A DNA stretch of 43,942 nucleotides from Pseudanabaena sp. lw0831 (GTDB lineage: Bacteria; Cyanobacteriota; Cyanobacteriia; Pseudanabaenales; Pseudanabaenaceae): positions 1 to 43,942 of the forward strand of contig NZ_BBJB01000045.1 in NCBI RefSeq assembly GCF_016584665.1. Reading direction: 5' to 3'. The notes beneath the pieces are model-generated. The model did not search any database, was not told the origin of the DNA, and saw nothing but the letters and a program-made list of their open reading frames with translations. Position numbers and translations under genes: made by a program. Of the stretch, positions 3,311-27,319 are shown piece after piece. The first letter of the stretch is position 1. Every line of letters starts with the position of its first letter.

Positions 3311-3536
3311 TCATGATTGAGAATCGAAAACCTTGTTAACTTGTTAACTTGTTCTCTAATCAATAAGCACTTTGGTTTAACATTGATGGTATTATAGCCC
3401 GATAAATATCTAAGGGAAGAATTAGGTCAACTTTAGTTAAAAAATTAGTGCATTACCCAATGCACACTAACAATGCCCTAATTTTAAATGGGGGGGAGTT
3501 CGCTCAGAATCTAGACTTAATCAATTGAGAATAATT

Positions 3537-4832
3537 ATGATGAGTGCTGACATAGATTTAGATGAAGTATCTAAAGAGCAGAAAGAATCGGCTAAGCAAT
3601 TATTAAAGAGTCTAGAGTTAAGTAGATCTGGATGTGTATATGTTATTCGCGATCGCATTCGTTGGTCGTTTTACATTGAGCGCGGAAAACTGGTCTATGC
3701 TTCGCACTCATTAGATAGTTTTGAAAGATTAGAACGACATCTGCGGATGTTAAGTCGAGAAGTCCCTGCCTTGGATGACAAATTGCGATCGCAGCTTCGG
3801 CTCATGTTTGACGATCCTTCTCCAGATAATGCTAAGTACAAAGTTACTAGCGAAATTCTCTGTGTTGAATATCTTGCAATTTTGTGGCTAGTTAATGAAA
3901 ACCATCTGTCTAAACCTATGGCGGGTAAATTGGTTGCACGGATTATCCAAGAAGTTGTCGAAGCATTTCTCTGCTTGCCAGATGGGAAGTTTGGGGGTTC
4001 CTATTACGAGCATTTCTTAAAAGAAACCTATTGCAGTTTATCGATTGATCGGATTTTAGAAGTAGTTATAAAGCGCCTCCAAGCATGGTACAAACTTGGC
4101 CCGACGATTATCTCACCCTACCAATGTCCTTATCTAGTCAGCCAGGCAAATGCGGAAACCCGCATGTCACATGAAACTGTGCAACGACTTGGACGAATTT
4201 TACGTGGTTTTAACTTTTGTCAATTGGGTGCATTACTAGCCAAAGATCCCCTAGCGATCGCTAAGCAACTTAGTCCCCTAATTAGTGATGGTTCGATTCT
4301 ATTAAGAGATCCCTTGCCTCCTTTTAATATGTTGCCCCCTACCTATTACCTAGCGCCCGCAGAAGAGCAAGAAAATATCGAAAAACTTTCAGAGACTTTT
4401 ATGGATGACTCTAGCTCAGGTGAAGATGAATCTAGCATTTCGCAGATTTTTACAAGGCAGGCATCAAAAACTTGGAAGATCGTCTGTATCGATGATAGTG
4501 AGTCAATGCTCAGTATTATTAGCAGCTACTTAGGAAATGAAGATTTTCAAGTTACACTAATTCAAGACTCCATGAAAGCGTTATTAAAAATCACTTCGAT
4601 TCGTCCTGATTTAATCTTGCTAGACATCGGAATGCCCAATGTTGATGGTTATCAACTTTGTTCTTTAATTCGTAAATCTTCGATTTTAAAAGAGATTCCC
4701 ATTGTGATGGTGACAGGCAATAAAGGATTAATTGATCGTGCCCGCGCAAGGATCGCAGGAGCGACGGATTATTTGACCAAACCCTTTGTCCAAAATGATT
4801 TGCTAAAAATGATCATGCGTCATCTCATGTGA
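3537..4832 (+). CDS. PatA/PixG-family response regulator (PATAN-REC)
   Basis: This 431-residue protein has an N-terminal PatA-type (DUF4388-like) region over about 1-270, an acidic linker, and a C-terminal receiver domain (about 312-430). The receiver shows the acidic pair CIDDSE, phosphoacceptor D363 in LLDIGMPNVDGY, the T of MVTGN and the K of YLTKPF. It is the usual first gene of cyanobacterial pix/pil/hmp-type chemotaxis operons and probably acts downstream of the CheA hybrid on the type IV pilus machinery. I chose the ATG at 3537; a TTG at 3525 and an ATG at 3540 are in frame. Its own hairpin terminator follows, so the downstream genes may use a separate promoter. Confidence 0.88.
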   Translation: MMSADIDLDEVSKEQKESAKQLLKSLELSRSGCVYVIRDRIRWSFYIERGKLVYASHSLDSFERLERHLRMLSREVPALDDKLRSQLRLMFDDPSPDNAKYKVTSEILCVEYLAILWLVNENHLSKPMAGKLVARIIQEVVEAFLCLPDGKFGGSYYEHFLKETYCSLSIDRILEVVIKRLQAWYKLGPTIISPYQCPYLVSQANAETRMSHETVQRLGRILRGFNFCQLGALLAKDPLAIAKQLSPLISDGSILLRDPLPPFNMLPPTYYLAPAEEQENIEKLSETFMDDSSSGEDESSISQIFTRQASKTWKIVCIDDSESMLSIISSYLGNEDFQVTLIQDSMKALLKITSIRPDLILLDIGMPNVDGYQLCSLIRKSSILKEIPIVMVTGNKGLIDRARARIAGATDYLTKPFVQNDLLKMIMRHLM

Positions 4833-4840
4833 ACATTAAC

Positions 4841-4892
4841 ACATTAAATTTGTGGATATTTACAGAAATAATCACAAATTTAATGTTTTTTA
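4841..4892 (+). terminator. Terminator after the PatA-like gene
   Basis: ACATTAAATTTGTG (4841-4854) pairs with CACAAATTTAATGT (4873-4886) and is followed by a T run. It begins 8 nt after the stop, fitting a partial terminator between the PatA-like gene and the rest of the chemotaxis operon. Confidence 0.6.
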
Positions 4893-5069
4893 GCATTGGA
4901 TGAGTTAAGCAACTCGGATCTAAAAACACATTGCTTTTATATGGTATCTTTATATTTTATTAAGAATTACCATCTCGGACAAAAATTAGGATGAGCGCCA
5001 AAAGCTAAATCCTATTCGTAAAATCCTTAGTTAGCAATTAAAGAAAACAAGATTTAGTGAGCACGCATT

Positions 5070-5429
5070 ATGACGACAGTACTTGTAGTTGAAGATACTG
5101 CTTCTGAGCAGGATTTGATTGTTAGTTATTTAGTGGAAAGTGGTTACAACGTAATCAGTGCGACTAATGGACAAGAAGCTCTCAAAAAAATCGAAGGGAG
5201 AAGGCCTGATGTCGTAGTTACTGATTTGGTGATGCCAGGAATGAGCGGATTAGAGCTATGCCGCAGTCTGAAAAAAAATAGTGAGACAAAAGATGTGCCA
5301 ATTGTAGCCTGTACTTCTAAAAATCAAGAGCTTGATAAGTTATGGGGTATGAAACAAGGAATTGATGTCTACGTTACTAAGCCTTTCACCCGTGAAGATA
5401 TCTTACGAGCCGTTCGTTCTGTAGCCTAG
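5070..5429 (+). CDS. CheY-like response regulator, PilH/PixH type (copy 1)
   Basis: A single receiver domain of 119 residues with VVEDT, phosphoacceptor D52 in VTDLVMPGMSG, the T of ACTSK and K in YVTKPF. It has no output domain, so it should act as a diffusible phospho-receiver for the CheA hybrid encoded downstream. It is one of two tandem copies; the block DLVMPGMSGLE and the WGMKQG segment are shared with the next gene. It follows the PatA-like gene after 237 nt and precedes copy 2 by 59 nt. Confidence 0.92.
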   Translation: MTTVLVVEDTASEQDLIVSYLVESGYNVISATNGQEALKKIEGRRPDVVVTDLVMPGMSGLELCRSLKKNSETKDVPIVACTSKNQELDKLWGMKQGIDVYVTKPFTREDILRAVRSVA

Positions 5430-5488
5430 ATCGCTAAGCTCTGATTGTCATGCTCAATTAGTTTCCATATAGATTAGGAGATAAGAGA

Positions 5489-5854
5489 TTGATTACAGTA
5501 TTGGTAGTAGAAGATACGTCTTCGGAACGTGAATTGATTTGCGATTATTTACGTCAGGGTGGATATTCAGTCGTAAGCGCTTGCGATGGCAAGGAAGGCT
5601 TAGAAAAGTTTGAGTCGGTTAAGCCGAATATTGTCGTTACCGATCTGGTAATGCCTGGGATGAGCGGGTTGGAGATGTGTCGGGCGATCAAAAAGGTGGC
5701 GACAGCAAAAGTGCCTGTGATTGCTTGTACTTCCAAAGATCAAGATCTCGATCGCATGTGGGGGATGAAGCAAGGTGTGGATGTTTATCTCACCAAGCCA
5801 TTTACCAAAGACGATATCTTGCAGGCTGTGCGATCGCTGGCGGTTGGAGGATGA
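5489..5854 (+). CDS. CheY-like response regulator, PilH/PixH type (copy 2)
   Basis: A receiver-only protein of 121 residues, clearly a tandem duplicate of the preceding gene. It has phosphoacceptor D52 in VTDLVMPGMSG, ACTSK and YLTKPF, and divergent helix surfaces. The start is a TTG at 5489, supported by a strong AGGAG about 8 nt upstream and by alignment with copy 1 from residue 1. Its stop lies 1 nt before the ATG of the CheW-like gene, so the two are probably translationally coupled. Two receivers for one CheA suggest divided roles such as signal and phosphate sink; this is inference. Confidence 0.92.
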   Translation: MITVLVVEDTSSERELICDYLRQGGYSVVSACDGKEGLEKFESVKPNIVVTDLVMPGMSGLEMCRAIKKVATAKVPVIACTSKDQDLDRMWGMKQGVDVYLTKPFTKDDILQAVRSLAVGG

Positions 5855-5855
5855 A

Positions 5856-6368
5856 ATGGTTGATTTGATGATCGAGTTGCAGGAGGAGAAGACACAGGCG
5901 ATCGCAGGCTTGCCCTATTTAAGCTTGCAGCTAGGTCTCAATGTGACTGTCGCTGTACAATTAAAATTTGCGCGCGAAACCTTGGTATTAGCTACTGATC
6001 GCTTTACGCAAATGCCCAATGTTCATCCTTGTCTGATGGGGCTAGTTGAGCATCGCAGCAACGTTTTTTGGGTGCTGGACTTACCTCAACTATTAGGTTT
6101 TACCCCGATTGATTCGACCGCGATCGAGATACATATCGCGATCTTGCAAATTGGCGGCGCATTTATTGGTCTAGGGGTTTATCGGGTGGGGAGGGTGGTG
6201 CGATTTACCGAGCCTGAGATCGTATCGCCCCTAGAATTACCGAAGGCTAAGACTCCAATTGAGCTTGTGCCTTTTCTGCGCGGTTGGGTCATTCAGTCAG
6301 AAGATGTTAACGGCAATCTGTATGTGTTAGACCCCGAAGCGATCGCTCGTCATAACTTTACCGTCTAG
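5856..6368 (+). CDS. CheW-like adaptor, PilI/PixI type
   Basis: This 170-residue CheW-domain protein would couple the MCPs to the CheA hybrid. Features include an N-terminal beta-strand block (LVLATDRFTQMPNVHPCLMG), the CheW core NVFWVLDLPQLLG, and VGRVVRFTEPE. I set the start at the ATG at 5856, which has GGAGG 5 nt upstream inside the end of the CheY gene. A longer in-frame reading from 5775 would overlap that gene by 80 nt and has no support. Order and spacing place it in the chemotaxis operon. Whether it is the functional PixI or PilI equivalent cannot be decided from sequence alone. Confidence 0.85.
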   Translation: MVDLMIELQEEKTQAIAGLPYLSLQLGLNVTVAVQLKFARETLVLATDRFTQMPNVHPCLMGLVEHRSNVFWVLDLPQLLGFTPIDSTAIEIHIAILQIGGAFIGLGVYRVGRVVRFTEPEIVSPLELPKAKTPIELVPFLRGWVIQSEDVNGNLYVLDPEAIARHNFTV

Positions 6369-6369
6369 A

Positions 6370-6391
6370 TTTCAACTTTCAACTTTCAACT
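6370..6391. repeat. Short heptamer tandem repeat TTTCAAC x3
   Basis: Three copies of TTTCAAC lie between the CheW-like and MCP genes, about 30 nt before the MCP start. This resembles the short tandemly repeated repetitive (STRR) sequences known in cyanobacteria. Confidence 0.6.
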
Positions 6392-6420
6392 TTTTACTGG
6401 AAAAAACGGAGTTTTAAATC

Positions 6421-9237
6421 ATGGTTCTTGATTCACGTTCTCGTACTGATAGCTCTGAATCCATAGATGGTAATGGGACAGAGCCTTCTAGCAATGGCAG
6501 CCATACCAATACAAATAGGATTAATCCGACTAACTCTACTCCTGCAAATCCTGCGAACAAGAAAAAGTCAATCGGGCAATGGTGGCAAGCTTTAGGTTTA
6601 CGAACTAAGACCGCAGTTATATCGGTGGCGGCGATCACGATTCCTTTGCTAGCTTTAGGAGGATTTACTTATTATTATGTTGGACAAAATATTGCTGAAT
6701 CTACCAAACAAAAAGATATCGAGGTTTCAAGTGAGTTAGCTCAGCGGCTTGCTTATTTTATGCGCGATCGCTATGGAGATATTCAAACTATTGCTCAACT
6801 GTCCTTTTTAACCAATACCAAAGTGCGGGAAGCATTACCGATCACTGAGCAGAAGGCAATTTTAGACACATATATCAAGAGCTATCTGGTCTATGACAGT
6901 ATCGCGGTCTATCGGTTGGATGGCAGCCTAATTGTCGATGTTAGCCCAGAACCACCACCTGCGAATATTTCTAAACGCGCTTACTTTCAGGAGGTTTTAA
7001 AGACCGACAAACCATATATCAGCCAACCCGAAGCATCTGTCGTTACAAAGAAGGTGAGTCTATTTATTGCCGCACCCGTGAAAGATGTGACAACGGGTAA
7101 AACCATTGCGGTAGTCCGTTCCAGAATGCAAGCATCTGCTCTTGATGAGGTATTTAAAGATTTTAGTGAAGGTGCACAAGAATATCATGTATCTGAATCT
7201 GACGGCAAATTTTTCTTGGCATCAGAGGCAAATAAAATTGGGCAAGATATAAAAACTGAGTTCCCTGAATTAAATTCGCTAATTGCCAGTCGTCAACGTG
7301 GTTCGGTGACAGCAAATGATCGAGCGGCTAATAGAGAGCAGTTTGCGGGATATTCACCATTGCCTAAGCTGGAAGGACTACCAGAACTAAAGTGGGATGC
7401 TGTAATTGCCATTGACACTGATATTGCGCTGAAACCTTTGCAGCAATTACTGTTGATCTTGTTGGCTGCGACTGGTGGTGTCGCTGTCTTAGCATCGGTA
7501 TTAGCGATCGCGATCGCCCAGCGTGCCACCAAACCAATCATCGACGCAACGCAAGCGGTGGTTGAACTTGGTAAAGGTAATCTCGAAACCCGACTTGCGG
7601 TAGAAGGCGAAGATGAAATGGCGCAACTGGGCGGCAACATCAACTTGATGGCCGAACAATTGCAGACATTCTTGGCTTTGCAAGAAGCTCAAACAAAGCG
7701 ATCGCAGATTATTGCAGAAATATCCCGATTGCGTAAAACTGAAGAACTTGAAGTGCCATTGTGCCGATTTTTAAATGAAATTTGCCAAGATTTAAAATGT
7801 GATCGGGTCGTAGTTTATCAATTTATCAACGACGATCTTGGGCGCAACCTTGGCGAGATCGTTGCCGAATCTGAAACTCACTCTAATCTCTCTAGTGCTA
7901 AGACTGCGGGATTGAGCGATCCTTGTATTCCTGATGAGCTAATTGAAGGATATAAGCAAGGACGAGTAGTCGCAACTCGCGATGTTTTTAATGCAGGATT
8001 TGCTCCTGCTCACCTCGACCTAATGCGGAAATTACAGATCAAATCTAATTTGGTAGTGCCTGTTCTGATTACGGGTAAGTTGGATAGTCTATTGATCGCG
8101 CACTCCTGTAGCCAAATGCGTGATTGGCAAGATTCAGAGATTCAGTTCATGCAAGACTATGCTAAGGACTTGGGACTTGCGCTTGGTGGAATAGCACTTA
8201 TACAACAAGAGCGCACTAATGCGTTAAAAGAACGTAACCGCAGTGAAACGATTCAACGCGAGTTAATTACATTACTATCGGACGTTGAAGGTGCGGTGAG
8301 TGGAGACTTGACTGTTCGCGCTCAAATCTCGGCTGGTGAAATTGGCATCGTTGCCGACTTTTTTAATGCGATCGTCGAAAGTTTGCGGGACGTTGTCCGC
8401 AAGGTAAAAGACACAACAGGGCTGGTAAGTACCTCCGTAAATACTAATAACGAAGCAATTCGTAAGCTTGCTCAAGAGTCAACCTTACAGACCAAACAAC
8501 TTGACGAAGCACTGACTTCCGTTGAACAAATGACCGATTCGATTCAACAGGTGGCAAGCAGTGCTCAGCAAGCGGCGACAGCTTCTAATACGGCGGCAAA
8601 TACAGCAAAAACTGGTAGCGTGGAAATCGAGCAGTCAGTACAAAGTATCTTGCAACTACGTCAAACTGTTGATGACACTGCGAAGAAAGTAAAACGACTT
8701 GGAGATGCATCGAAACAGATCTCGAAGGTAGTTGTACTAATCGATCAGATTGCCCTAAAGACCAACATGCTTGCACTAAATGCCAGTGTTGAAGCCGCGC
8801 GGGCGGGTGAAGAAGGTCGCAGCTTTGCGGTCGTTGCAGCAGAGGTCGGAGCCTTGGCTGCACAGTCAGCAACAGCAACTAAAGAAATTGCCCGCTTGGT
8901 TGAGAGTATTCAACAAGAAACTAGTGAAGTAGTTCAAGCGATGGAAGCCAGTACAGTGCAAGTGGTTGAAGGTACAAATCGAGTCGAAGATGCGCGTAAG
9001 AGTTTGAACCAAATTGTGATAGTTTCGCAGCAGGTAAATGAACTCTTTCAAACGATTTCGATTGCTACGACTTCACAGGTGCAAACTTCCCAATCAGTGC
9101 GATCGCTAATGGCTAAGCTCTCAACCCAGTCACAGATGTCTTCGGAAACCTCGCGAAATGTTGCGATCGCCTTACAAGAAACCGCAGATGTCACTAGTCA
9201 GTTACAAGAATCAGTCGAAACCTTTAAGGTCGAATAA
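6421..9237 (+). CDS. Methyl-accepting chemotaxis protein, Cache-HAMP-GAF-HAMP-signalling
   Basis: This 938-residue transducer has a polar N-terminal tail, a first membrane segment (about 64-88), an extracytoplasmic Cache-like sensor (about 90-340), a second membrane segment (about 344-368), a HAMP domain, a GAF domain (about 450-600), a HAMP-like repeat (SGDLTVRAQ) and an MCP signalling domain. The signalling hairpin tip is [20 protein letters not shown]. The GAF domain looks like a cyanobacteriochrome: it keeps C502 in SDPCIPDEL. At the canonical bilin-attachment position 28 residues later, however, it has Ala530-His531 instead of Cys-His. Light sensing by a canonical thioether-linked bilin is therefore unlikely. 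GGAG about 11 nt upstream supports the start. It is PixJ/PilJ-like in position, and the ligand is unknown. Confidence 0.9.
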
Positions 9238-9321
9238 GTTCTAGATTTTGAGCGATCGATGCAACGCATTGATCGCTTTGTCCCTAATCGAATTAACAGC
9301 AGGGTTTTTTTAAAGGAATAT

Positions 9322-11178
9322 ATGCTAGCAAACAAAGAATCAGTTTTGACCGATCCAAAGCCTTCTATCCCAGTTATTTTAGAGCCTGTAATGGAGCGAA
9401 CTGGAGAAGATCGTAAAATTATTCGTGGCTTGACTACTTTTGTGGGAGTCGGGCTAGTCATATTTGGGATTTCAGCATTGAATCTCTTTGATATCTATCG
9501 AGGGTTTCGCTCGATTTCCGAGAAAAATTTTCGACTGCAAGAACTAAGCGGCAAAATCGTATATTTTGACGAAGTTTTAACCATGTCAGCACGGATGTCA
9601 GCTTCTACTGGCGATCCTCGGTGGGAAAAGCGCTATCTAGAGTACGATCCCCAACTCGTAGCCGCACTTGAAGAGTCAGCAAAGATTGCACCTGATGCTT
9701 ATAAAAATTTGCCAACAGAAGTTAATGATGCCAATACAAAGCTAGTTGACTTAGAAAAAAAATCCTTTGAATTAGTCCGCCAAGGCAAAAAGATCGAAGC
9801 TTCACAAATTTTATTTGGGGCTGAGTATGAAGCCCAGAAAAAGATTTATGCTGATGGCTCATCAAAGACACTGGTAGCAATCGAAAATGAAACTCAAGGA
9901 CAGTTGCAATCTTTCAGTCAGCGTTTGACTGTTTCTCTAATATTCACTCTGCTCACTTTACCCGCATTGATTGGGGCTTATTTAATTGCTCTGAAGTTAA
10001 TTCGCGCATATCTAAGCGATCGCGATCGCGCTCAAAAAAATATTGCATCATTGCTAATCCAACAGGCTGAGACCGATAAGGAACGCGCAAGACTCGAACT
10101 ACAACAGGCTACATCTGAGCAGGAACGAGCAAGAATGCAATTGGAGCAATCCATTGCGACTCAAGACAGTGAACGAAGCGCTGTTTTACAAAGAGAGTTA
10201 ATTGCATTGCTGTCAGATGTTGAAGGGGCTGCGAGTGGTGACTTAACGGTACGGGCCCAGATTTCGGCGGGTGAAATTGGGATTGTTGCCGACTTCTTTA
10301 ATTCAATTATTGAAAGTCTACGAGACGTTGTGCGACAAGTAAAACAGTCGGCAGGGCTTGTAAATACATCAGTGGATACAAATAACCAGTCAATTCGCAA
10401 TCTTGCGGAAGATGCCATCTCCCAAGCACAACAACTTGAGGAAGCACTGCAATCGGTCGAACAAATGACCAATTCGATTCAGCAAGTTTCTAGCAGCGCT
10501 CAACAAGCTGCCAATGCTTCGATTGCTGCTGCCGACAATGCGGAAACTGGTAGTGTGGCGATCGAGCAGTCTGTAAAAAGTATCTTGCAATTGCGGCTAA
10601 CAGTGGCGGAGACTGCCAAGAAGGTAAAACGACTTGGGGAAGCTTCGCAACAAATTTCTAAAATTGTCGTACTGATCGATCAGATTGCGCTAAAAACAAA
10701 CATGTTGGCAGTCAACGCTAGTATCGAAGCGTCACTAGCAGGTGAAGAAGGTCGCGGCTTTGCAGTAGTTGCGGAAGAAGTCGGTGCATTGGCTGCACAA
10801 TCAGCAAAAGCCGCTAAAGAAATTGAAATTTTGGTGGAAACTATTCAAAAAGAAACTAGCGAAGTGGTACAAGCGATGGAAGCCAGTACGGTGCAAGTAG
10901 TTGAAGGTACAAATCGGGTCGAAGATGCTCGTAAGAGTTTGAACCAAATTGTCCAAGTTTCACGTCAGGTTAACCAATTGTTTCAAGAGATTTCGATCGC
11001 CACAACTTCACAGGTACAAACTTCGCAATCAGTGAAGCTGGTTATGGAAAACCTCTCTACTCAATCTCAGAAGTCTTCAGAAACTTCACGGGATGTGGCG
11101 ATCTCACTACAAGAAACCGCAGATGTTGCCAGCAAGTTGCAGGCTTCGGTAGAAACCTTTAAAGTAGATATAGCTTAA
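9322..11178 (+). CDS. Second methyl-accepting chemotaxis protein with altered hairpin tip
   Basis: The protein has 618 residues from the ATG at 9322 (AAAGGA about 4 nt upstream). An in-frame ATG at 9259 would add 21 residues. A first membrane segment lies about 35-57, then a short helical ectodomain, a second membrane segment (about 215-240), a long charged coiled coil ([20 protein letters not shown]), a HAMP-like block and the MCP signalling domain. From the HAMP-like block onward it is closely similar to the preceding MCP, so the genes share a duplicated cytoplasmic half with different sensors. Its tip reads [16 protein letters not shown], where the family has LALNAAxEAARAGE, so a normally conserved arginine is leucine. 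It matches the position of PixJ2 in the Synechocystis operon. Confidence 0.9.
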
Positions 11179-11227
11179 ATTCGCTAATCGCTTCCAGCAA
11201 AAAGACAAAACAAAAAAAGAGGTCGAT

Positions 11228-14143
11228 ATGGCAACTAATACATTAAACGATCGCGAATGGGAAGTTCGATTGCTATTTCTCGACGAAGTTAAAGATTTTT
11301 TGGCGGATATTGAGACGGAAATCATCGGCTTAAGCGATCGCGGTTTGCAGCGATCCTCGACTGATAAGATTTTACGTGCTGCTCACTCCATGAAAGGTGG
11401 TGCAGCAATGATGGGTTTTCTTGCTCTCAGTGAACTAGCTCACCATCTAGAAGACTTCGTTAAAATCCTCCAAGTAAACAATCAAACTGCGATCACCCCT
11501 GAAATGGAAAGCCTGTTTCTAGCAGCAGTCGATAACATGGGAAAAACTGCGAATATTCACAAGCAGCGTCAAAAACCTGATGATGTTTGGTTAGAAGAAC
11601 AGGTCAATCTTCCATTTAAGCATCTGCGGGAAATTCTCGGCGAATTATCAACAAAGGATGAAGCAAGTCTGCTATCTGAAGAAGCTGGACAGGATATGCG
11701 TGTCCTCATGTTTGCGACTGAAGTAGATGCATGTTTGGAGAGGTTAGCTAAAGTAATTGGCGATCAAGATTCGCAAGTGCTACGAGAGGAGTTTGAACTC
11801 ACAAGCCAAGAATTTGGCTGCTTAGGTGAAATGCTTGAACTGCCAGCATTTAGCCTCCTTTGCCAAGAGATTAGCAGCGCCTTAGCCGAGCATGACAATA
11901 ACCTTTACGAAGTGACAACCGCCGCCTTAGAAGCTTGGCGGCGATCGCAAGCTCTTGTTTTAGTCGGACAGTTTCAAGCTTTACCAGACCATTTTGAAAT
12001 ATCGTCACCAAAAACTGCTCCAATTGCAGTTGCCACAAACGATCCATCCTTAAATTTAGAGGGTTTCCCGAAAGAAATTCTAGTTGATGATCTCAATGAG
12101 CTTTCTCTAGACTTAGTAGAATTAGAATCTAACTATCAAGATGTCAAGATCGCTACTCCAAACGTAGTAGAGCCTACGGCTGCCCCTGCCACAAATTTTG
12201 ATGCCACTATCCGTATTCCTCTACGTCAGTTAGAAGCACTCAGCGATCGCTTTGGTGAGTTAAATGCAGAACGTAGTGGATTGCGCCTACAACTTCGCCG
12301 AATGCGCGATTTGGTGCAACTTCTCAGTACAAGAATGCATGGATTAGAACAGTCCAATTCCCAACTTAGAGAAGCCTACGATCGTGTAGTTACATCATCT
12401 GAGCCATTTATTCCCTTAAATACCATAATTGCTTCAGAAATCCCATCAGAAAGTATGAGAGGCGATCGCTACATTAACGAAGCCGTAAACAATGCAGACT
12501 TTCTGCCCTATACCAGTCGTTTTGACTTGTTAGAAATGGATCGCTATAGCGAGTTACATGTGCTGTCACGGGAAATCATGGATAGTGTTGTCCAATTGCA
12601 AGAAGTCTCAAGCGATCTAGAAACAGCTTTAACTGACACCGAAGGCACTGAACGTGAACTAGGACGAGCCTCACGCCAAATGCAGACGGCGATCGAGCAA
12701 GCCAGAATGCGAATGCTCAGCGAGATCTTAGGCAGATTTCCCCGCTTATTGCGGGATTTGTCTCTCGCCCATGGTAAACAAGTTGAGTTGTTGGTACGTG
12801 GCAGTTCCACTCTTGTTGAGCGATCAGTTTTAGAAATCTTGGAAGATCCGATCTTACATCTAATTCGCAACGCCTTCGATCATGGCATTGAAACGCCAGA
12901 AGCGCGTATTGCTGTTGGTAAGCCACCAAAAGGAAAGATCGAAATTGCCGCAGGATATCGTGGTAACCAAACCGTAATAACCGTCAGTGATGATGGCAAT
13001 GGTGTTGATTTTGCCAAACTACGCGATCGCGCTTTGCAGATGGGATTAAGCGAGAGCGATCTTGATGGCTCTAGTGAAAATGAACTATTAGAGTTGATTT
13101 TTGAAGCAGGATTTAGTACCGCAGATCGCGTGACTGAGCTTTCAGGTCGTGGCGTTGGTATGGACGTGGTGCGCTCAAATTTGAATGTGATTGGTGGCAA
13201 TGTTCGTGTTGAGACAGAAACTGGACGAGGAACAACTTTTATCTTGACAGTGCCTGTGTCTCTCTCAATCGCGCGAGTGCTTCTATTTGAAAGCAATGGT
13301 TTGCAGATGGCAATTCTCACTAGTGCTGTTGAAGAAATTATCCTAATTAAAGACACTTCGATCTATACGGTCGCCAACCAAGAGGTGTTAGATTGGGAAG
13401 GATATTCCGTGCCTTTATTGAAATTAGGCGATCGCCTCCATTTCTCGCGACCCCAATTTCAAATTGAAACTGAAAACCGCCCGATTGTAGACGAACCTTT
13501 AATGCTAGTTGTGACACGCAATAACGTTCCATTCGGGTTGCAAGTAGATCGCTATTGGGGTGAGCAGGAAGTAACCATTCGTGGTTTACAAAGTCCGATC
13601 CCAATGCCAACTGGGTTTATGGGTTGCGCGATTTTAGGAGGTGGGAAGCTAGTGCCACTGGTGGATATTGACAGCTTACTCACTTGGTCAATTGCCGATA
13701 TTGATGCACCTCCCAGTAAAACACTCACCTTACCATCTGAGCGAGGCGATCGGCGCGTTACCGTGCTGGTCGTTGACGATTCGATTAACGTGCGCAGGTT
13801 CTTAGCGATGACCCTAGAAAAATCTGGCTATCGAGTAGAACAAGCTAAAGATGGGCTGGAAGCAATGGAGAAGTTGCGGAAATTGCAAACTTTACCTAAA
13901 GACTCCAGAGTCAGTGCGGTGATCTGCGACATCGAAATGCCCCGACTAGATGGATTTGGCTTTTTAGTACAATCTCGTGACGATGATAATTGCAAAAATA
14001 TTCCTGTGATGATGCTCACGTCTCGAAGCGGTGCAAAGCATCGAGAATTAGCAATGCGTCTGGGAGCTTCCGCATATTTCGCGAAGCCATTTAAAGATAA
14101 TGAACTACTGCAAACGTTATCGCATCTTGTACAGTCAAGATGA
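11228..14143 (+). CDS. CheA-type hybrid histidine kinase (Hpt-CheA-CheW-REC), PixL/PilL-like
   Basis: This 971-residue kinase has an N-terminal Hpt domain with phosphorylated H53 in RAAHSMKGGAAMMGF. A dimerisation region follows, then an HATPase domain with the N box LIRNAFDHGIE, the G boxes VSDDGNGV and GRGVGMDVVRSNL, and GRGTTFIL. A CheW-like regulatory domain (about 690-830) and a C-terminal receiver (VLVVDDSIN, D901 in ICDIEMPRLDG, YFAKPF) complete it. All catalytic boxes appear intact. It should take signals from the two MCPs via CheW and phosphorylate the CheY-like proteins and the PatA-like receiver. It lies 49 nt after the second MCP. Only one Hpt domain is seen. Confidence 0.93.
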   Translation: MATNTLNDREWEVRLLFLDEVKDFLADIETEIIGLSDRGLQRSSTDKILRAAHSMKGGAAMMGFLALSELAHHLEDFVKILQVNNQTAITPEMESLFLAAVDNMGKTANIHKQRQKPDDVWLEEQVNLPFKHLREILGELSTKDEASLLSEEAGQDMRVLMFATEVDACLERLAKVIGDQDSQVLREEFELTSQEFGCLGEMLELPAFSLLCQEISSALAEHDNNLYEVTTAALEAWRRSQALVLVGQFQALPDHFEISSPKTAPIAVATNDPSLNLEGFPKEILVDDLNELSLDLVELESNYQDVKIATPNVVEPTAAPATNFDATIRIPLRQLEALSDRFGELNAERSGLRLQLRRMRDLVQLLSTRMHGLEQSNSQLREAYDRVVTSSEPFIPLNTIIASEIPSESMRGDRYINEAVNNADFLPYTSRFDLLEMDRYSELHVLSREIMDSVVQLQEVSSDLETALTDTEGTERELGRASRQMQTAIEQARMRMLSEILGRFPRLLRDLSLAHGKQVELLVRGSSTLVERSVLEILEDPILHLIRNAFDHGIETPEARIAVGKPPKGKIEIAAGYRGNQTVITVSDDGNGVDFAKLRDRALQMGLSESDLDGSSENELLELIFEAGFSTADRVTELSGRGVGMDVVRSNLNVIGGNVRVETETGRGTTFILTVPVSLSIARVLLFESNGLQMAILTSAVEEIILIKDTSIYTVANQEVLDWEGYSVPLLKLGDRLHFSRPQFQIETENRPIVDEPLMLVVTRNNVPFGLQVDRYWGEQEVTIRGLQSPIPMPTGFMGCAILGGGKLVPLVDIDSLLTWSIADIDAPPSKTLTLPSERGDRRVTVLVVDDSINVRRFLAMTLEKSGYRVEQAKDGLEAMEKLRKLQTLPKDSRVSAVICDIEMPRLDGFGFLVQSRDDDNCKNIPVMMLTSRSGAKHRELAMRLGASAYFAKPFKDNELLQTLSHLVQSR

Positions 14144-21230: not shown

Positions 21231-21312
21231 AAAAAGGTTATTGCTTTGCAATGACCTTTTTAAGTAAACAAAAGAGAGTTGAGACGCTTTGCGTCTCAAC
21301 TCTCTTTTGTTT
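21231..21312 (+). terminator. Tandem hairpins after the porin gene
   Basis: Two hairpins lie in series. The first (21231-21261) has tip ATTGC-TTT-GCAAT. The second is a perfect 22-bp stem (21266-21287 with 21291-21312) with tip GACGC-TTT-GCGTC, followed by T residues. They separate the convergent porin and small secreted-protein genes. Confidence 0.75.
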
Positions 21313-21777: not shown

Positions 21778-22009
21778 CTTCGCCAGAAACTCACAAAAAA
21801 AATTATAGAAAAATCGCCAAGATATTAGCAAAAAACTGGGAAAGATGTGTGCTATTGTCTGCTAACAAATTTGGCTTTAGAGTGTAGCTCATTTAAGAGC
21901 CAATTTGCGTACTAATTTTAGTAATCTTTGGATTTATAGCACTAAGCAACATAAATCCAAAGATGATATCCCTTTATCTTGTCGTTATGGAGGTCTTGCA
22001 GGGGGCGTT

Positions 22010-25000
22010 ATGTCAAAAGTTCTGATTAGTAGTTTGATCGATCAAATCAATACATTATTGAGCCGCCCAGTAGGATCAGTATCGAGGAAGCCATCCTCAG
22101 AGCTGATCAACCAGAGGGAGCAGCTAAAACAGCTGCGATCGCATCTTGAAGGACTAACTGATGACTCACATTTGGTTGATTTAGAGCCGCAATATCAAGC
22201 TTTAGTAACGCACTTGCAAGGAAAAAGCCATCCTCATAATGATCTAAACAATCATCTGGGAAGTGAACCATCTAATCAAAATGACGCAAAAACAGCAGAA
22301 TTCAAGACAGACCTATTTAAAACAGATAAACTAGAAGCATTGCCACCCCTATTAGTTAGCCCAGTAGTTAGCAACTTATTTGGCGCTGAATCTTACTTGA
22401 CAAAGGAGACTAGCACAATGACGAATGGCACACCTGAACCAAATTCTACATTTGTCAACGATCGCATGATTGCTTCGCTCCAGCAAGCAATTCAGCAGAC
22501 ATTGCAACAGGTTGTTAAAGAGTCAGTCCAGCAATCGGTGCAGCAAGTAGTCAGTCAAACTCTCGCCGTCGAAAGGGCGCTCATGGTAGGAGAAATTTCG
22601 GCGAGTTTAAATAAAATTGTTGAATCCCAGCAGCGATCGCAAATAAGTCAAGAATTAATTACTTTAAATCAACAAAAACAAAAGTTAAACGCTGAAATCT
22701 CGCAGCTAGAATCTGATCGTGTAACTTGGATGAAACAGTTTCAAGAGTTTCAAACGACTCAACAGGAAGCTCTAGATCGATCGCTAAGCTCAGTTAATAA
22801 CTACGTGCGCGATCAGATCTCTGACTCATTGCAACAAACTATGCAGCAGACTATGGCGGGAACTGTAGCCGATAGGGTCAATCAAACAGTCGCCCAGACT
22901 CTTCAAGATAACTTAGCTAATCTATCCTCTACTACTGCTAGTCCATTGGCAGAGACTCCACAAACAGAATTTGCAAATAAAGTACAGGAACAAACTGATC
23001 GTTTTTTGCTGCATCTAGATGAAATGTTTAACACCACATTTCGATCGCTAGAGCAGGAAATCCAAGGCTATCAAACATCGATCGCTGCCAAGCTTGGTAA
23101 TATCGAAACCCTTGAGCAAAAGGGTGAAGCTTTAATTAGTGCCTTAGTTGATCGGATCAGTCAACAAACTGTTCAACAGCCACAAAACTTTGCTGAAATA
23201 TCTCCATCTGCCACCAATATATTGCCCGAATTACCAGATGATATCCCAATCCGATATCTAGAGACCTTTACAGAACCTGCTGATGAAGAATTAATCAAGG
23301 CCTTATTAGCGGGTAATAAGTTTGGCGAGGCGGATGAAGTTGAAACACCTGAAACATCAACTATTGAGGCTGAGCTTCTTGAAGTTGTGACAAGTGATGA
23401 TATAAATAGTCCCGCTGAACTGGACAGTATATTAAGTGCAGACGAGGATTGCCTAATCGAGGAGCCAATTGTTGCAATACAAGCCGATCCGTTAATTGAT
23501 CTAGCTGGCTTCGGTACAAGTATTATTCTCGACCCTCAAAGCGCGATCGCTGCTCGTGAGTTAAATCCCGATTTTGATTTAGAGGCGGCAACCCAAATAG
23601 TCGAAAGATTTGATACCCCGCGTACTCGAATGCAGGAAAATGAAGATGAAAGTAATAGTTTTGATTTACTATCATTAAATTTTCCTGTGGAGGAGGTAGT
23701 CAGCGAATCTGGAGAATTAATTGATGATCCTGAACTTCTGCAATGGTTAGAGGAAAGTAATAATCGTCCTAGTCCAACCACCAATATCGCTGATGTTTCC
23801 CCCGACGAAGATTTATTGTCATGGCTAGGTAACGAAGCTCTCGACATGGCTAAACTACCTGCCCAGAGAGAAGATCAATCACTAATTCTCAATAGTTCGA
23901 CATCAGAAGAAGTTTTTACTGCTTCTCAAACTCCTCCTATTTCCTCGATTAATATAAATTTAGACATAAACAGTGATAGCCCAGATACTATAGAATCCAA
24001 AATCGAACAATTCTTAAATAGTTCTAATAATGATCAAGCCGATGATTCTGATGAATCACTAATCCTACTGACTAGTAAAAGCTTAAATGATTCAGCTTTT
24101 CCTGAATGGGAAGATTCACTAGTTGATGATCTTAATTTTGATCTGGAGCGCCTTGATGCTGGAGTTGGAGCCGATCCACAGATTGCTGCTAATCTCGATC
24201 AATTTATTCGCAATACGCCCTACGCTCTAACTAATTGGGAAACCGAAGAATCTCAAGCTTATCCTACGATCATTGAGGTCTCAGCCCAAGAATCAAGTGA
24301 CAAAAATGTCAAATCGCAATCAGAAATTGATGAATTAGAAGTTCCACCAGTTATAGAAAATCCTAACACCTTATTTATTGATCGATTTGCTGATTCCTTT
24401 ACTGATCGTGACGATCTCTCAGAGATGAACGTAGATATTGTCGATTTACAACTATCTCCATTTACAACTGAATCTAATGATATTCCTGAAATCTTTGACA
24501 ATCCCGATTCTCTGTTTGACATAAAAACGGAAGAGCGGATTTCGGGAATAGAATTAACTCCTTCTTCCAATTTGTTGCCAGATTCGGTTCCGTCTAATAT
24601 TGATGACATGGACGCAATTTTTGCAGCAGTAATAGCCGAAAACGCAGCTAAGTACTCTCAACCAACTCCATTTACAGCTAGTGATGAACTTGATGAATTG
24701 TTTGTGCCGATCGAAACTAGTAATCAGGGGGCAAGCATAAGTACAAGTCCAAATCCAAGTCTAGATGATGAAAGTGAGATTGATACGCTTTTGTTTGGGT
24801 TCGATCCTGCAACTGAATTAGAAGAATCTGATACAGTCATGCAAACTATAACTAAAGGAGATTCTAAGGGGATTGATGTTGGCGCGAAAACGATGCATGA
24901 GCCTCTTGTTCTTCCTGAATCAACGGAATCTATTGAAGAGCAATTAGATACAATTATGCAAGGCTTTGCACTGGAAGAGTCGATAGATTTTATTGACTCT

Positions 25001-27268
25001 TCAGAACTTACTGTAATTGAGACTGTCGAAGAAGTTCCAACAGCTTCGGGAAATTATAATACCAATATTACGCAAGAAGAAGCTGAAGATGATTGGACTA
25101 TAGCTCTAGCGAATCTCGAATCCAAACTAGTGCAGCCAAATACAAGTAAAGATGATAATGATTCTAGTACTGAATCTTCAGAGTTATCAGCGGATGAGTT
25201 TTTCGCTTCTTTAGAATATGACAAGATAGATAGTTTCGCAAATACGATCGCAAAAGCTACGCCACCAAAATCTTCAGGCGAAGTCTCGATGGATGAGATC
25301 GCTGATTTCATCGATTTCGAGAATATCCCTGAAGAAGAGGAAGGCGACCTATTGCTTAATGAATTTGCAGATGCTCAGAGGAATGCTCCGAGCAATGTTG
25401 CCGATAATGAGTGGGAGAATTTATTAAGTGAATTGAACTCATTTAACTTTAACGAGCCATTGCTTGATGATATGCGTGAGCAGCTTGGGCTGTCATCAGT
25501 AGCGCCAATTAGTGACACCAGCGAAAATGTCTTCGATATTGACTCACTGGTATTGGAATCACGCAGTATGTCTTTGATTCCTGCTCCACCTGAAAAAGAA
25601 GTTTATAACCTTGATGATACTTGGGTTTTAGGTATTGATTTTGGTAGTACCGCCATAAGGGCAAGCTTACTTAATGCTGATACTGGTCGCGTGTATTCTC
25701 TATATCTTGACGATGCTGATGAAATGCCCTGCAAAATTGTTTGGCAAGCAGATCAAAGCTTAGATGATCCGATCGCTCAAGATATTCGGACGATCTCTAA
25801 GCGATCGCAGAATGCTGGACTAGAAGATGGCGAAGTGGCGATTGTCCATTTCAAACAGTTTCTCAAACTAGGTTTACCCTATCGCGGTGTAAGTACTTGG
25901 CAGCCAATCATCCAATGGACTGATCACAGTCAGGTAAGTCTGCGTTGGTTAATTGCTGCTCTTAAAAATCTACTGGAGCAAATTCAAACTAGAGCTAATC
26001 ATCCTAAACTTCCTGATGTTGGGTTGATTTTGTTAAAGCTCAGCGGCGTTGTTTTTGGCTATCCTGCTAACTGGTCAGATACCTACATTCTTAATATTCG
26101 CGAAGCAATTCTTAAAGCAGGATTAGTTAGTCAAGCTGAGCAGGTGTTGGCTGTCGATCAGGCGATCGCCCCCGTTTTATCTTTGCTTCACGATCAGAAG
26201 ATTTCACAGGAAGTTACGCTTTTAGTTGACGCAGGTGCAATTACAACCAGTCTCTGCTTGACTAAAGGGCTTAGTCAAACTAAAGATCGCTCCAAGATAC
26301 ATATTCGCAGCCTTGACTATGCGGGGATTAGCATCAGTCAAGATATTGTCGTCCAATTGTTCTATCCTCATTGGCAGTTAATCACCAATCCAAATCGTCA
26401 TCTCTGCAATTTTGATCGTCTCAGCTTGCCAGAGATTGGCGCTGATGCCCCGCAGCAAAGGATTCTCCTTCAGCAATATTTGTTAAGTTCTAACCTTGGG
26501 CAACAAATGTTGGAGCTTGCCGATCGCATCAAAGTCACATTTGGTAGAGATGTTGGTGTCGATAGTTGGAATGAGGAACTGATGGGACAGCCGATCGTGG
26601 TTTTGCGGCGGGAGTTGGAAAACTTGATTTTGCAACCATTAATCCAACGACTTAATCGCGAACTAAATTCTATTCTCAGTAATGCGGGAGTTATTGGTGA
26701 AGATGTGCATCAAGTTTTGCTGTTAGGTAACACTATGCATATTCCCTTGCTATCACGTTGGCTATCCCAAAAACTGCCCAATGCGAAGATTAGCCCATTA
26801 GCGACAACAGTGTTGGCAAATGGGTTAGCTGTATCACCGCTCTATCCGAATTTGCAAGATGTCGCACGTCAGCAATATTCTGATTACTTTCTTCTGCAAG
26901 AGATTTGCCGCCTCAACCTCACGCAATCGGTCAATCCTAGTCAACTACTTCAACAATTACAAATGCGCGGAATTAATATCAAAACATGCCGCGATCGCAT
27001 TTTGAGTATCCTGCAAGGTGATTTGCCAGAAGGTTTATTTCCTTGGCAAGAGCCAGAAAGTTTGGTGGTTTTAGAAGATCCGACTCTTAGCAGTGACTTG
27101 TTTGCAGGTCGCTTGTTTGAACTAGAAACTGATGGCACATATCAGCCCAATGTAGTCAAATTCCAGCAATTGCGTGTTTATTTACAAGCGATTATTGGCA
27201 ATATGAGTCAAACGCTGAATGAACCACTCGTTTTTCCTGAAATCAAAACCTTGGCGCTCGCCAAGTAA
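22010..27268 (+). CDS. Giant coiled-coil/acidic protein with C-terminal Hsp70-like ATPase domain
   Basis: A 1752-residue protein. Residues about 1-150 hold a short helical segment; about 150-370 are a Gln-rich coiled coil (QQAIQQTLQQVVKE, QQTMQQTMAGTVADRV). About 430-1190 are strongly acidic and probably disordered, with recurring short motifs such as DPELLQWLEE, DEDLLSWLGN and NEWENLLSEL. The C-terminus (about 1205-1620) is an Hsp70/actin-fold ATPase: phosphate-1 GIDFGSTAIRASL, phosphate-2 LLVDAGAITTSL, adenosine motif VLLLGNTMHIPLL. No peptide-binding beta domain of DnaK type is recognised. I chose the ATG at 22010 after AGGGGGCG; a start at 21905 is possible. The ATPase is probably cytoplasmic and the acidic region may be a multivalent scaffold. 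The role is unknown. Confidence 0.85.
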   Translation: MSKVLISSLIDQINTLLSRPVGSVSRKPSSELINQREQLKQLRSHLEGLTDDSHLVDLEPQYQALVTHLQGKSHPHNDLNNHLGSEPSNQNDAKTAEFKTDLFKTDKLEALPPLLVSPVVSNLFGAESYLTKETSTMTNGTPEPNSTFVNDRMIASLQQAIQQTLQQVVKESVQQSVQQVVSQTLAVERALMVGEISASLNKIVESQQRSQISQELITLNQQKQKLNAEISQLESDRVTWMKQFQEFQTTQQEALDRSLSSVNNYVRDQISDSLQQTMQQTMAGTVADRVNQTVAQTLQDNLANLSSTTASPLAETPQTEFANKVQEQTDRFLLHLDEMFNTTFRSLEQEIQGYQTSIAAKLGNIETLEQKGEALISALVDRISQQTVQQPQNFAEISPSATNILPELPDDIPIRYLETFTEPADEELIKALLAGNKFGEADEVETPETSTIEAELLEVVTSDDINSPAELDSILSADEDCLIEEPIVAIQADPLIDLAGFGTSIILDPQSAIAARELNPDFDLEAATQIVERFDTPRTRMQENEDESNSFDLLSLNFPVEEVVSESGELIDDPELLQWLEESNNRPSPTTNIADVSPDEDLLSWLGNEALDMAKLPAQREDQSLILNSSTSEEVFTASQTPPISSININLDINSDSPDTIESKIEQFLNSSNNDQADDSDESLILLTSKSLNDSAFPEWEDSLVDDLNFDLERLDAGVGADPQIAANLDQFIRNTPYALTNWETEESQAYPTIIEVSAQESSDKNVKSQSEIDELEVPPVIENPNTLFIDRFADSFTDRDDLSEMNVDIVDLQLSPFTTESNDIPEIFDNPDSLFDIKTEERISGIELTPSSNLLPDSVPSNIDDMDAIFAAVIAENAAKYSQPTPFTASDELDELFVPIETSNQGASISTSPNPSLDDESEIDTLLFGFDPATELEESDTVMQTITKGDSKGIDVGAKTMHEPLVLPESTESIEEQLDTIMQGFALEESIDFIDSSELTVIETVEEVPTASGNYNTNITQEEAEDDWTIALANLESKLVQPNTSKDDNDSSTESSELSADEFFASLEYDKIDSFANTIAKATPPKSSGEVSMDEIADFIDFENIPEEEEGDLLLNEFADAQRNAPSNVADNEWENLLSELNSFNFNEPLLDDMREQLGLSSVAPISDTSENVFDIDSLVLESRSMSLIPAPPEKEVYNLDDTWVLGIDFGSTAIRASLLNADTGRVYSLYLDDADEMPCKIVWQADQSLDDPIAQDIRTISKRSQNAGLEDGEVAIVHFKQFLKLGLPYRGVSTWQPIIQWTDHSQVSLRWLIAALKNLLEQIQTRANHPKLPDVGLILLKLSGVVFGYPANWSDTYILNIREAILKAGLVSQAEQVLAVDQAIAPVLSLLHDQKISQEVTLLVDAGAITTSLCLTKGLSQTKDRSKIHIRSLDYAGISISQDIVVQLFYPHWQLITNPNRHLCNFDRLSLPEIGADAPQQRILLQQYLLSSNLGQQMLELADRIKVTFGRDVGVDSWNEELMGQPIVVLRRELENLILQPLIQRLNRELNSILSNAGVIGEDVHQVLLLGNTMHIPLLSRWLSQKLPNAKISPLATTVLANGLAVSPLYPNLQDVARQQYSDYFLLQEICRLNLTQSVNPSQLLQQLQMRGINIKTCRDRILSILQGDLPEGLFPWQEPESLVVLEDPTLSSDLFAGRLFELETDGTYQPNVVKFQQLRVYLQAIIGNMSQTLNEPLVFPEIKTLALAK

Positions 27269-27319
27269 ACCCATAAGATGAAAGACCGCGCTTCGCGCGG
27301 TCTTTCATCTTATGGGTTT
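27267..27319 (+). terminator. Perfect 25-bp terminator hairpin after the giant gene
   Basis: A perfect 25-bp stem (27267-27291 with 27295-27319) with tip CGCGC-TTC-GCGCG overlaps the stop codon. The right arm ends in GGGTTT. Confidence 0.75.

Follow-up and report, generated by a model that had tools for sequence, protein, structure and literature searches.

The window, a 43,942-nucleotide contig of Pseudanabaena sp. lw0831 analysed over its whole length, carries on its forward strand a gene for a protein of 1752 residues (22010–27268), in which a coiled-coil scaffold is fused to an ATPase-like half. The open reading frame is real and conserved, and it occurs as a single copy in the 5.26 Mb genome. 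The ATG at 22010 is directly preceded by a purine-rich stretch and the homologue alignments start about there; an in-frame TTG at 21905 offers an alternative start that would add 35 residues. The fused protein found matches in 52 of the 58 genomes searched, its own genome counted, the weakest of them (E near 1e-4) being at the level of ordinary Hsp70, and its nearest named relatives belong to Pseudanabaena; a plasmid collection searched with the fused protein gave no match. Stem-loops with 20-pair stems lie on both sides of the gene (21268–21310 and 27270–27316), the second starting one base after the stop codon, and another part of the window (3525–14143) holds a chemotaxis-type cluster that encodes two MCP-domain proteins and a hybrid kinase resembling CheA.

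The sequence-only reading had placed a Gln-rich coiled coil and acidic disorder in front of the ATPase, and the front half is indeed built in this way. Residues 1–400 contain 13% Gln, and residues 401–1180, the acidic linker (23210–25549), contain 23.6% Asp and Glu and 4.0% Lys and Arg, with a net charge of −153. An N-terminal helical hairpin (22010–22189, approximately residues 1–60, the boundary being approximate) aligns with the start of the scaffold proteins that other genomes encode separately, and a coiled-coil block of the SepJ type (22637–23185, residues 210–392) has its core, LLHLDEMFNTTFRSLEQEIQGYQTS, at residues 333–357. L100, a fused relative that was modelled over its full length, contains helices at residues 7–30, 42–69, 83–164 and 185–269, followed by residues 268–596 with pLDDT under 50 and then by the ATPase, from which the linker of the window protein is predicted to be disordered. 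This model has a pTM of 0.57, a linker pLDDT of about 30–40 and no confidence values for domain placement, and we do not claim docking of the linker onto the ATPase. The linker also contains the short motif SPDEDLL (23798–23818), and motifs of this class occur in 23 of 74 N-terminal halves, compared with a mean of 0.6 and a maximum of 4 after shuffling. Judged by sequence, such short motifs are conserved beyond letter shuffles and point to no binding partner. Among the separate scaffolds, one (L117:4956–8351) has eight FTLEGMDDLF-like repeats counted by eye, which suggest multivalent binding, and two others are extremely acidic (L170:8739–14150, 28% Asp and Glu versus 2% Lys and Arg; L168:1227–6488, 24% versus 1%). 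Because the maximal Kyte-Doolittle mean over any 19-mer of the whole protein is only 1.32, no transmembrane segment is apparent, and no export signal was seen in the fused protein.

The last 577 residues were modelled with AlphaFold from a 57-sequence alignment (model m33fa64723cd6), giving a pLDDT of 89.4 and a pTM of 0.90. DnaK structures were the best Foldseek matches of this model (E 2.6e-15), and a second structure aligner returned at least 50 matches to nucleotide-binding domains (NBDs) of the Hsp70 family among those listed, with Z 22.4–25.0 over 332–369 residues. Many of the listed matches stay within model residues 28–438 (25616–26848) and others extend to 558–577. The last 550 or so residues are thus predicted to fold as an Hsp70 nucleotide-binding domain. 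The three nucleotide motifs that had been read from the sequence as those of an actin fold are present within this fold: GIDFGST at residue 1208, LLVDAGAITT at residue 1404 and LLLGNTMHIP at residue 1570. The description as a divergent, non-standard member of the Hsp70 group likewise stands as far as sequence goes, since the whole protein matched no Pfam family at E ≤ 0.1 and NCBIfam only at chance level, while the isolated domain scored 17.2 bits against Pfam HSP70, under the gathering cut-off of 20.6, and gave NCBIfam DnaK/HscA matches far under their cut-offs (best E 6.6e-4). With phmmer against solved structures, four weak DnaK matches were obtained (E 0.01–0.18), all on the last part of the domain. 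The genome also encodes three full-length DnaK-type proteins besides the fused protein, together with three further divergent Hsp70-like proteins of about 540 residues (L181, L182 and L183), one of which (L183) aligned to the family profile around the adenosine motif with an E of 7.8e-5.

The nucleotide site is kept unevenly across the 107 family members aligned. Here we use the DnaK residue names D8, K70, E171 and D194, which we take to apply to the corresponding family positions; the equivalences of E171 and D194 were verified by alignment with the genome's own DnaK, and those of D8 and K70 by motif only. The phosphate-1 Asp in GIDFGST (25637–25639) is Asp in 106 of the 107 members, with a gap in the other; the K70-equivalent is Lys in 98, and the E171-equivalent is Glu in 89 and Asp in 15. 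At phosphate-2 the DnaK signature GGGTFD (DLGGGTFD), whose loss had been noted from the sequence, is replaced in the window protein by LLVDAGAITT. This motif retains the Asp (26228–26230), which is found in only 29 of the 107 members; the position is Asn in 37 and Ser in 32, so that Asp is absent from 78, suggesting a slow or binding-only switch. With the nucleotide residues mostly kept and the phosphate-2 Asp mostly lost, ATP binding is likely and fast hydrolysis in most lineages is unlikely. Model residues 439–577 (26849–27265) form a C-terminal module of about 140 residues that stands where Hsp70 has its substrate-binding domain, is apparently different from that domain and is conserved in its own right (QYSDYFLL..E, RGIN...C, LP.GL.P), with Q443 kept in 104 of the 107 members, Y444 in 105, D446 in 103, F448 in 104, E452 in 106, G475 in 106, N477 in 96, C481 in 105, G491 in 103, P494 in 106 and G496 in 104.

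A profile of scaffold N-termini (13 rows), searched against 291 cyanobacterial genomes, recovered the scaffold and a second protein, mostly of about 560–855 residues. Both second proteins tested, one from the window's own genome (L186) and one from another (L187), end in an EamA permease domain. The latter lies 3.4 kb from a Pfam-confirmed hetR, and a third (L191) lies 2.3 kb from an ORF whose start equals that of this hetR. In Anabaena, alr2338 is reported as sepJ and alr2339 as hetR (PMC2821919, PMC12421839). We therefore regard the second protein as SepJ, from its EamA C-terminus, the nearby hetR and the Anabaena gene pair.

Comparison of the scaffold profile with a profile of SepJ coiled coils (9 rows) by hhalign gave a probability of 99.7 and an E of 1.4e-25. 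At E ≤ 1 the SepJ coiled-coil profile had just two matches in the entire genome from which the window comes, SepJ itself (7.9e-61) and the fused gene (4.6e-20), the latter exactly at residues 210–392. In the 291 genomes at E ≤ 1e-5 it found mostly SepJ and the scaffold locus of each genome, with a few weak strays. It also matched 73 of 74 scaffold N-terminal halves at E ≤ 1e-5, these halves having been picked with the scaffold profile and not with the SepJ profile, and at E ≤ 10 it matched none of the 74 reversed halves and none of 74 shuffles that preserve the heptad register. By these profile comparisons, the region from about residue 210 to residue 392 is a homologue of the SepJ/FraG coiled-coil domain. 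In a quick 30-row tree of the coiled coils, with SH-aLRT support only and long-branch warnings, one branch (SH-aLRT 92) parts SepJ from the scaffolds, and the window's genome is represented on both sides, so both forms of the coiled coil are probably old.

The phyletic distribution proposed as a check in the sequence-only reading was taken from the same 291 genomes, which had been selected through a completeness filter of 95. The ATPase profile matched 79 of them, of which 61 (E ≤ 1e-60) were counted as the ATPase family; 11 intermediate genomes (E 1e-25 to 1e-50) and 7 at the level of DnaK were kept outside the main table, the sets being sorted by hand. SepJ was found in 64 genomes, one of them by a weak match (G249, E 6.6e-8), and HetR in 65. 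Both the ATPase and SepJ are present in 59 genomes, only the ATPase in 2, only SepJ in 5 and neither in 225; with the 11 intermediates added, the counts become 61, 11, 3 and 216. For the ATPase and HetR, the corresponding counts are 57 with both, 4 with the ATPase only (the window's genus among them), 8 with HetR only and 222 with neither. These co-occurrence counts are inflated by shared descent and are not phylogenetically independent. HetR and SepJ are reported to mark filamentous species (PMC2821919, PMC12096826). In a scan of all prokaryotes, the 78 best loci, from the best 80 of 204 matching stretches, all had cyanobacterial titles.

Several genomes depart from this pattern. One (G095) has SepJ and HetR and lacks the scaffold/ATPase pair; two (G233 and G265) have SepJ and the scaffold with no recognised ATPase; two (G223 and G324) have the N-terminal module with neither ATPase nor SepJ; and in two (G151 and G163) the ATPase is present while SepJ, HetR and any recognised N-terminal module are missing. 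Nine genomes of one family (f27) have shrunken fused homologues, about 400–590 residues long in the five loci fetched (L164, L165, L166, L167 and L177), and no separate SepJ or HetR match. At three of these loci (L164, L165 and L177) the shrunken homologue adjoins an ORF that resembles, by eye, the CRP-type regulator of the full-length loci. Scaffold genes with no recognised ATPase gene behind them were also seen (L194, L195 and L196).

Across 128 loci, a set that counts some genomes twice (e.g. L043/L101 and L040/L074), scaffold and ATPase are fused in 67, encoded by separate ORFs in 27 and uncalled in 34. All 27 separate pairs are on the same strand, and in 22 of them the scaffold ends no more than 310 bases before the ATPase domain. 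In the other five (L116, L093, L099, L086 and L059; 825–3086 bases) an in-frame stretch precedes the ATPase, and these may be interrupted fusions. In the first 12 split loci examined, one with its scaffold cut by a contig end, an ATPase gene of 585–665 codons stands directly behind an acidic coiled-coil gene of 614–1408 codons. Among the uncalled loci, the ATPase domain is within 2500 bases of the locus end in 26; in the remaining 8, either the ATPase frame runs to the locus end (L103 and L126) or the N-terminal part was missed by the profile (L041, L039, L040/L074 and L046/L113). Since one split pair (L111) lies on the complete chromosome of Microcoleus vaginatus HSN003, assembly errors alone do not account for the splitting.

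The two arrangements have also replaced each other repeatedly. In a 67-row tree, the fused or split state changes nine times, six of the changes being forced by starred, well-supported branches; this tree is quick, with SH-aLRT support only and warnings of long branches. It took 43 of the 67 fused loci, near-copies having been removed by hand, and its 19 split rows leave aside the five possible interrupted fusions, a partly masked locus (L115), L127 and a duplicate (L043). One gene here, two adjacent genes in many cyanobacteria and at least six forced switches between these states make it very likely that the halves work as a pair, and we regard their functional coupling as well supported. Over 72 loci, other Pseudanabaena loci excluded, the frequent divergent neighbours (e.g. 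L111:5783–6493 and L111:4024–4776) are a CRP-family regulator (37 loci), a DUF2232 membrane protein (31) and a protein of about 389 residues (27). Pfam searches of the six commonest neighbour clusters, which include a CRP-type regulator, DUF2232, a sugar transferase and an AbrB-like regulator, recognised no septum gene.

The predicted NBD fold, the coiled-coil homology to SepJ, the recurrent pairing of scaffold and ATPase and the co-occurrence with SepJ support a reading in which the protein, switched by ATP, would partner SepJ-type coiled coils at the intercellular septum, a proposal that we judge about evenly poised between right and wrong. SepJ is described as a septal protein made of a coiled coil, a linker and a permease (PMC12096826), and its coiled coil is reported to be important for filament integrity (PMC6282017). 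In the fused protein the coiled coil and linker are kept and an Hsp70-type domain replaces the permease; on the simplest reading, the coiled coil would enter or mimic SepJ complexes, whose state the ATPase would control. We infer from this that the protein would sit on the cytoplasmic face of the septum, where its coiled coil would co-assemble with, or copy, those of the SepJ type. ATP binding, with hydrolysis slow or absent in most lineages, would switch the NBD and C-terminal module between states, and this switch would govern how the septal coiled-coil complex is assembled or exchanged. The partner and process, which the sequence-only reading had called unknown, are in this way narrowed to a SepJ-type coiled coil, the septal action being a proposal built on it. 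The strongest objection is a possible periplasmic location of SepJ's own coiled coil (PMC12096826, PMC6282017), in which case the two coiled coils might never meet, the fused protein having neither an apparent transmembrane segment nor an export signal; SepJ, too, is described as lacking an evident signal peptide (PMC12096826).

A bolder form of the septal-partner reading would make the pair an energy-sensing element of cell-cell junctions, in which the Hsp70-type domain would read ATP and, through the SepJ-type coiled coil, drive or license the closing and reopening of septal channels. These channels are reported to close on collapse of the proton motive force, and their components, the cytoplasmic cap included, were described as mostly unidentified as of 2022 (PMC9722847); the role of SepJ is still called elusive (PMC12096826). 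We consider this form highly improbable. SepJ is central to bacterial multicellularity, and here is a second family with its coiled coil, in nearly the same genomes, joined to an Hsp70-type NBD. The fused and split proteins offer a concrete candidate, accessible to genetics, for a control of septal junctions by ATP. In searches of open-licence literature, some of which listed only the best-ranked papers, we recognised no description of the family; a paper using an unfamiliar locus tag would have escaped them.

A cell-shape cytoskeleton, in which the NBD would polymerise like actin in the manner of FcmB or MreB, with filaments bundled or anchored by the coiled coil and a kinship with SepJ that is ancestral only, seems to us unlikely. 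The NBD does have the fold of the actin superfamily, and bacterial systems joining a coiled coil to an actin-like protein exist, with magnetosome examples; the structural matches listed are nevertheless of the Hsp70 family, and the Hsp70 family is not known to form polymers. An actin-like protein, FcmB, that interacts with a partner, FcmC, is reported from filamentous and not from unicellular cyanobacteria, but it is described as ParM-like with fcmC downstream (PMC12645912), whereas the scaffold is upstream here. A search of the window's own genome with PF06406 (StbA/ParM) gave no match, but neither did the controls, so that this search carries no weight.

We consider it decidedly unlikely that the protein is a specialised chaperone, an Hsp70-like machine folding or disassembling coiled-coil clients such as SepJ or pili, with the coiled coil as a built-in client adaptor. 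Such a machine would fit the Hsp70 NBD with its conserved D8-, K70- and E171-equivalents, and a cyanobacterial DnaK system has been reported to link pilus activity with polysaccharide secretion (PMC9239167). No canonical substrate-binding domain was recognised, however, the phosphate-2 residue is other than Asp in most members, and the genome is already provided with full-length DnaK-type proteins. It is equally doubtful that the coiled coil is a mere oligomerisation module in a system serving another filament-linked process (gliding, hormogonia or cell division), for although any filament-linked trait would fit a distribution that tracks HetR about as closely as SepJ, the common block is a specific family and not a generic coiled coil.

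Among known systems, PilM shares the actin fold, and of 21 family members 10 matched PilM_2 weakly (best E 9.4e-4) and 2 matched the FtsA profile (best E 0.015). PilM came into question through these weak PilM_2 matches and was set aside. Neither the PilM_2 nor the FtsA profile matches the window's domain at E ≤ 1, and the genome has a separate PilM beside an apparent pilN. FcmB and FcmC are likewise similar, FcmB being a member of the actin superfamily encoded next to its partner in filamentous cyanobacteria (PMC12645912). FcmB is however described as ParM/AlfA-like with its partner gene downstream, and the available part of that source mentions no SepJ-related coiled coil. An FcmB or ParM-type actin was rejected as an identity on two grounds, the upstream position of the partner half and the Hsp70 nature of the best structural matches among those listed.

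SepI (alr3364) resembles the front half in having a coiled coil and a linker-like region without a permease, and it is reported to interact with SepJ (PMC12096826). Anabaena SepI, SepT and SepN are listed at 521, 426 and 235 residues (PMC12421839), too short to be the fused protein; SepI could not hold both the coiled coil and an ATPase half of about 570 residues, and its length speaks against identity. In family f28, taken to be Nostocaceae, the homologue of the fused protein is an open frame of 1167–1511 residues.

SepJ/FraG (alr2338) itself shares the homologous coiled-coil domain, the order of coiled coil, linker and C-terminal functional domain, and mostly the same genomes. It ends in an EamA/DMT permease, whereas the fused protein ends in an Hsp70-type ATPase; its linker is reported to be rich in Pro, Ser and Thr, whereas that of the fused protein is strongly acidic; and the fused protein has an extra N-terminal helical hairpin. 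The fused protein has no EamA/DMT permease by Pfam (E ≤ 0.1) or by 19-mer hydropathy (no more than 1.32) and the genome's SepJ, with its EamA domain, lies elsewhere (L186). With Hsp70/DnaK, and with the NBDs of Hsp110 and Ssz1, the family shares the NBD fold and the D8-, K70- and E171-equivalents, and it differs in the missing GGGTFD, the variable phosphate-2 Asp, the coiled coil in front or in the neighbouring gene and, apparently, the C-terminal module. The family would show the Hsp70 nucleotide-binding domain used with a different C-terminal module.
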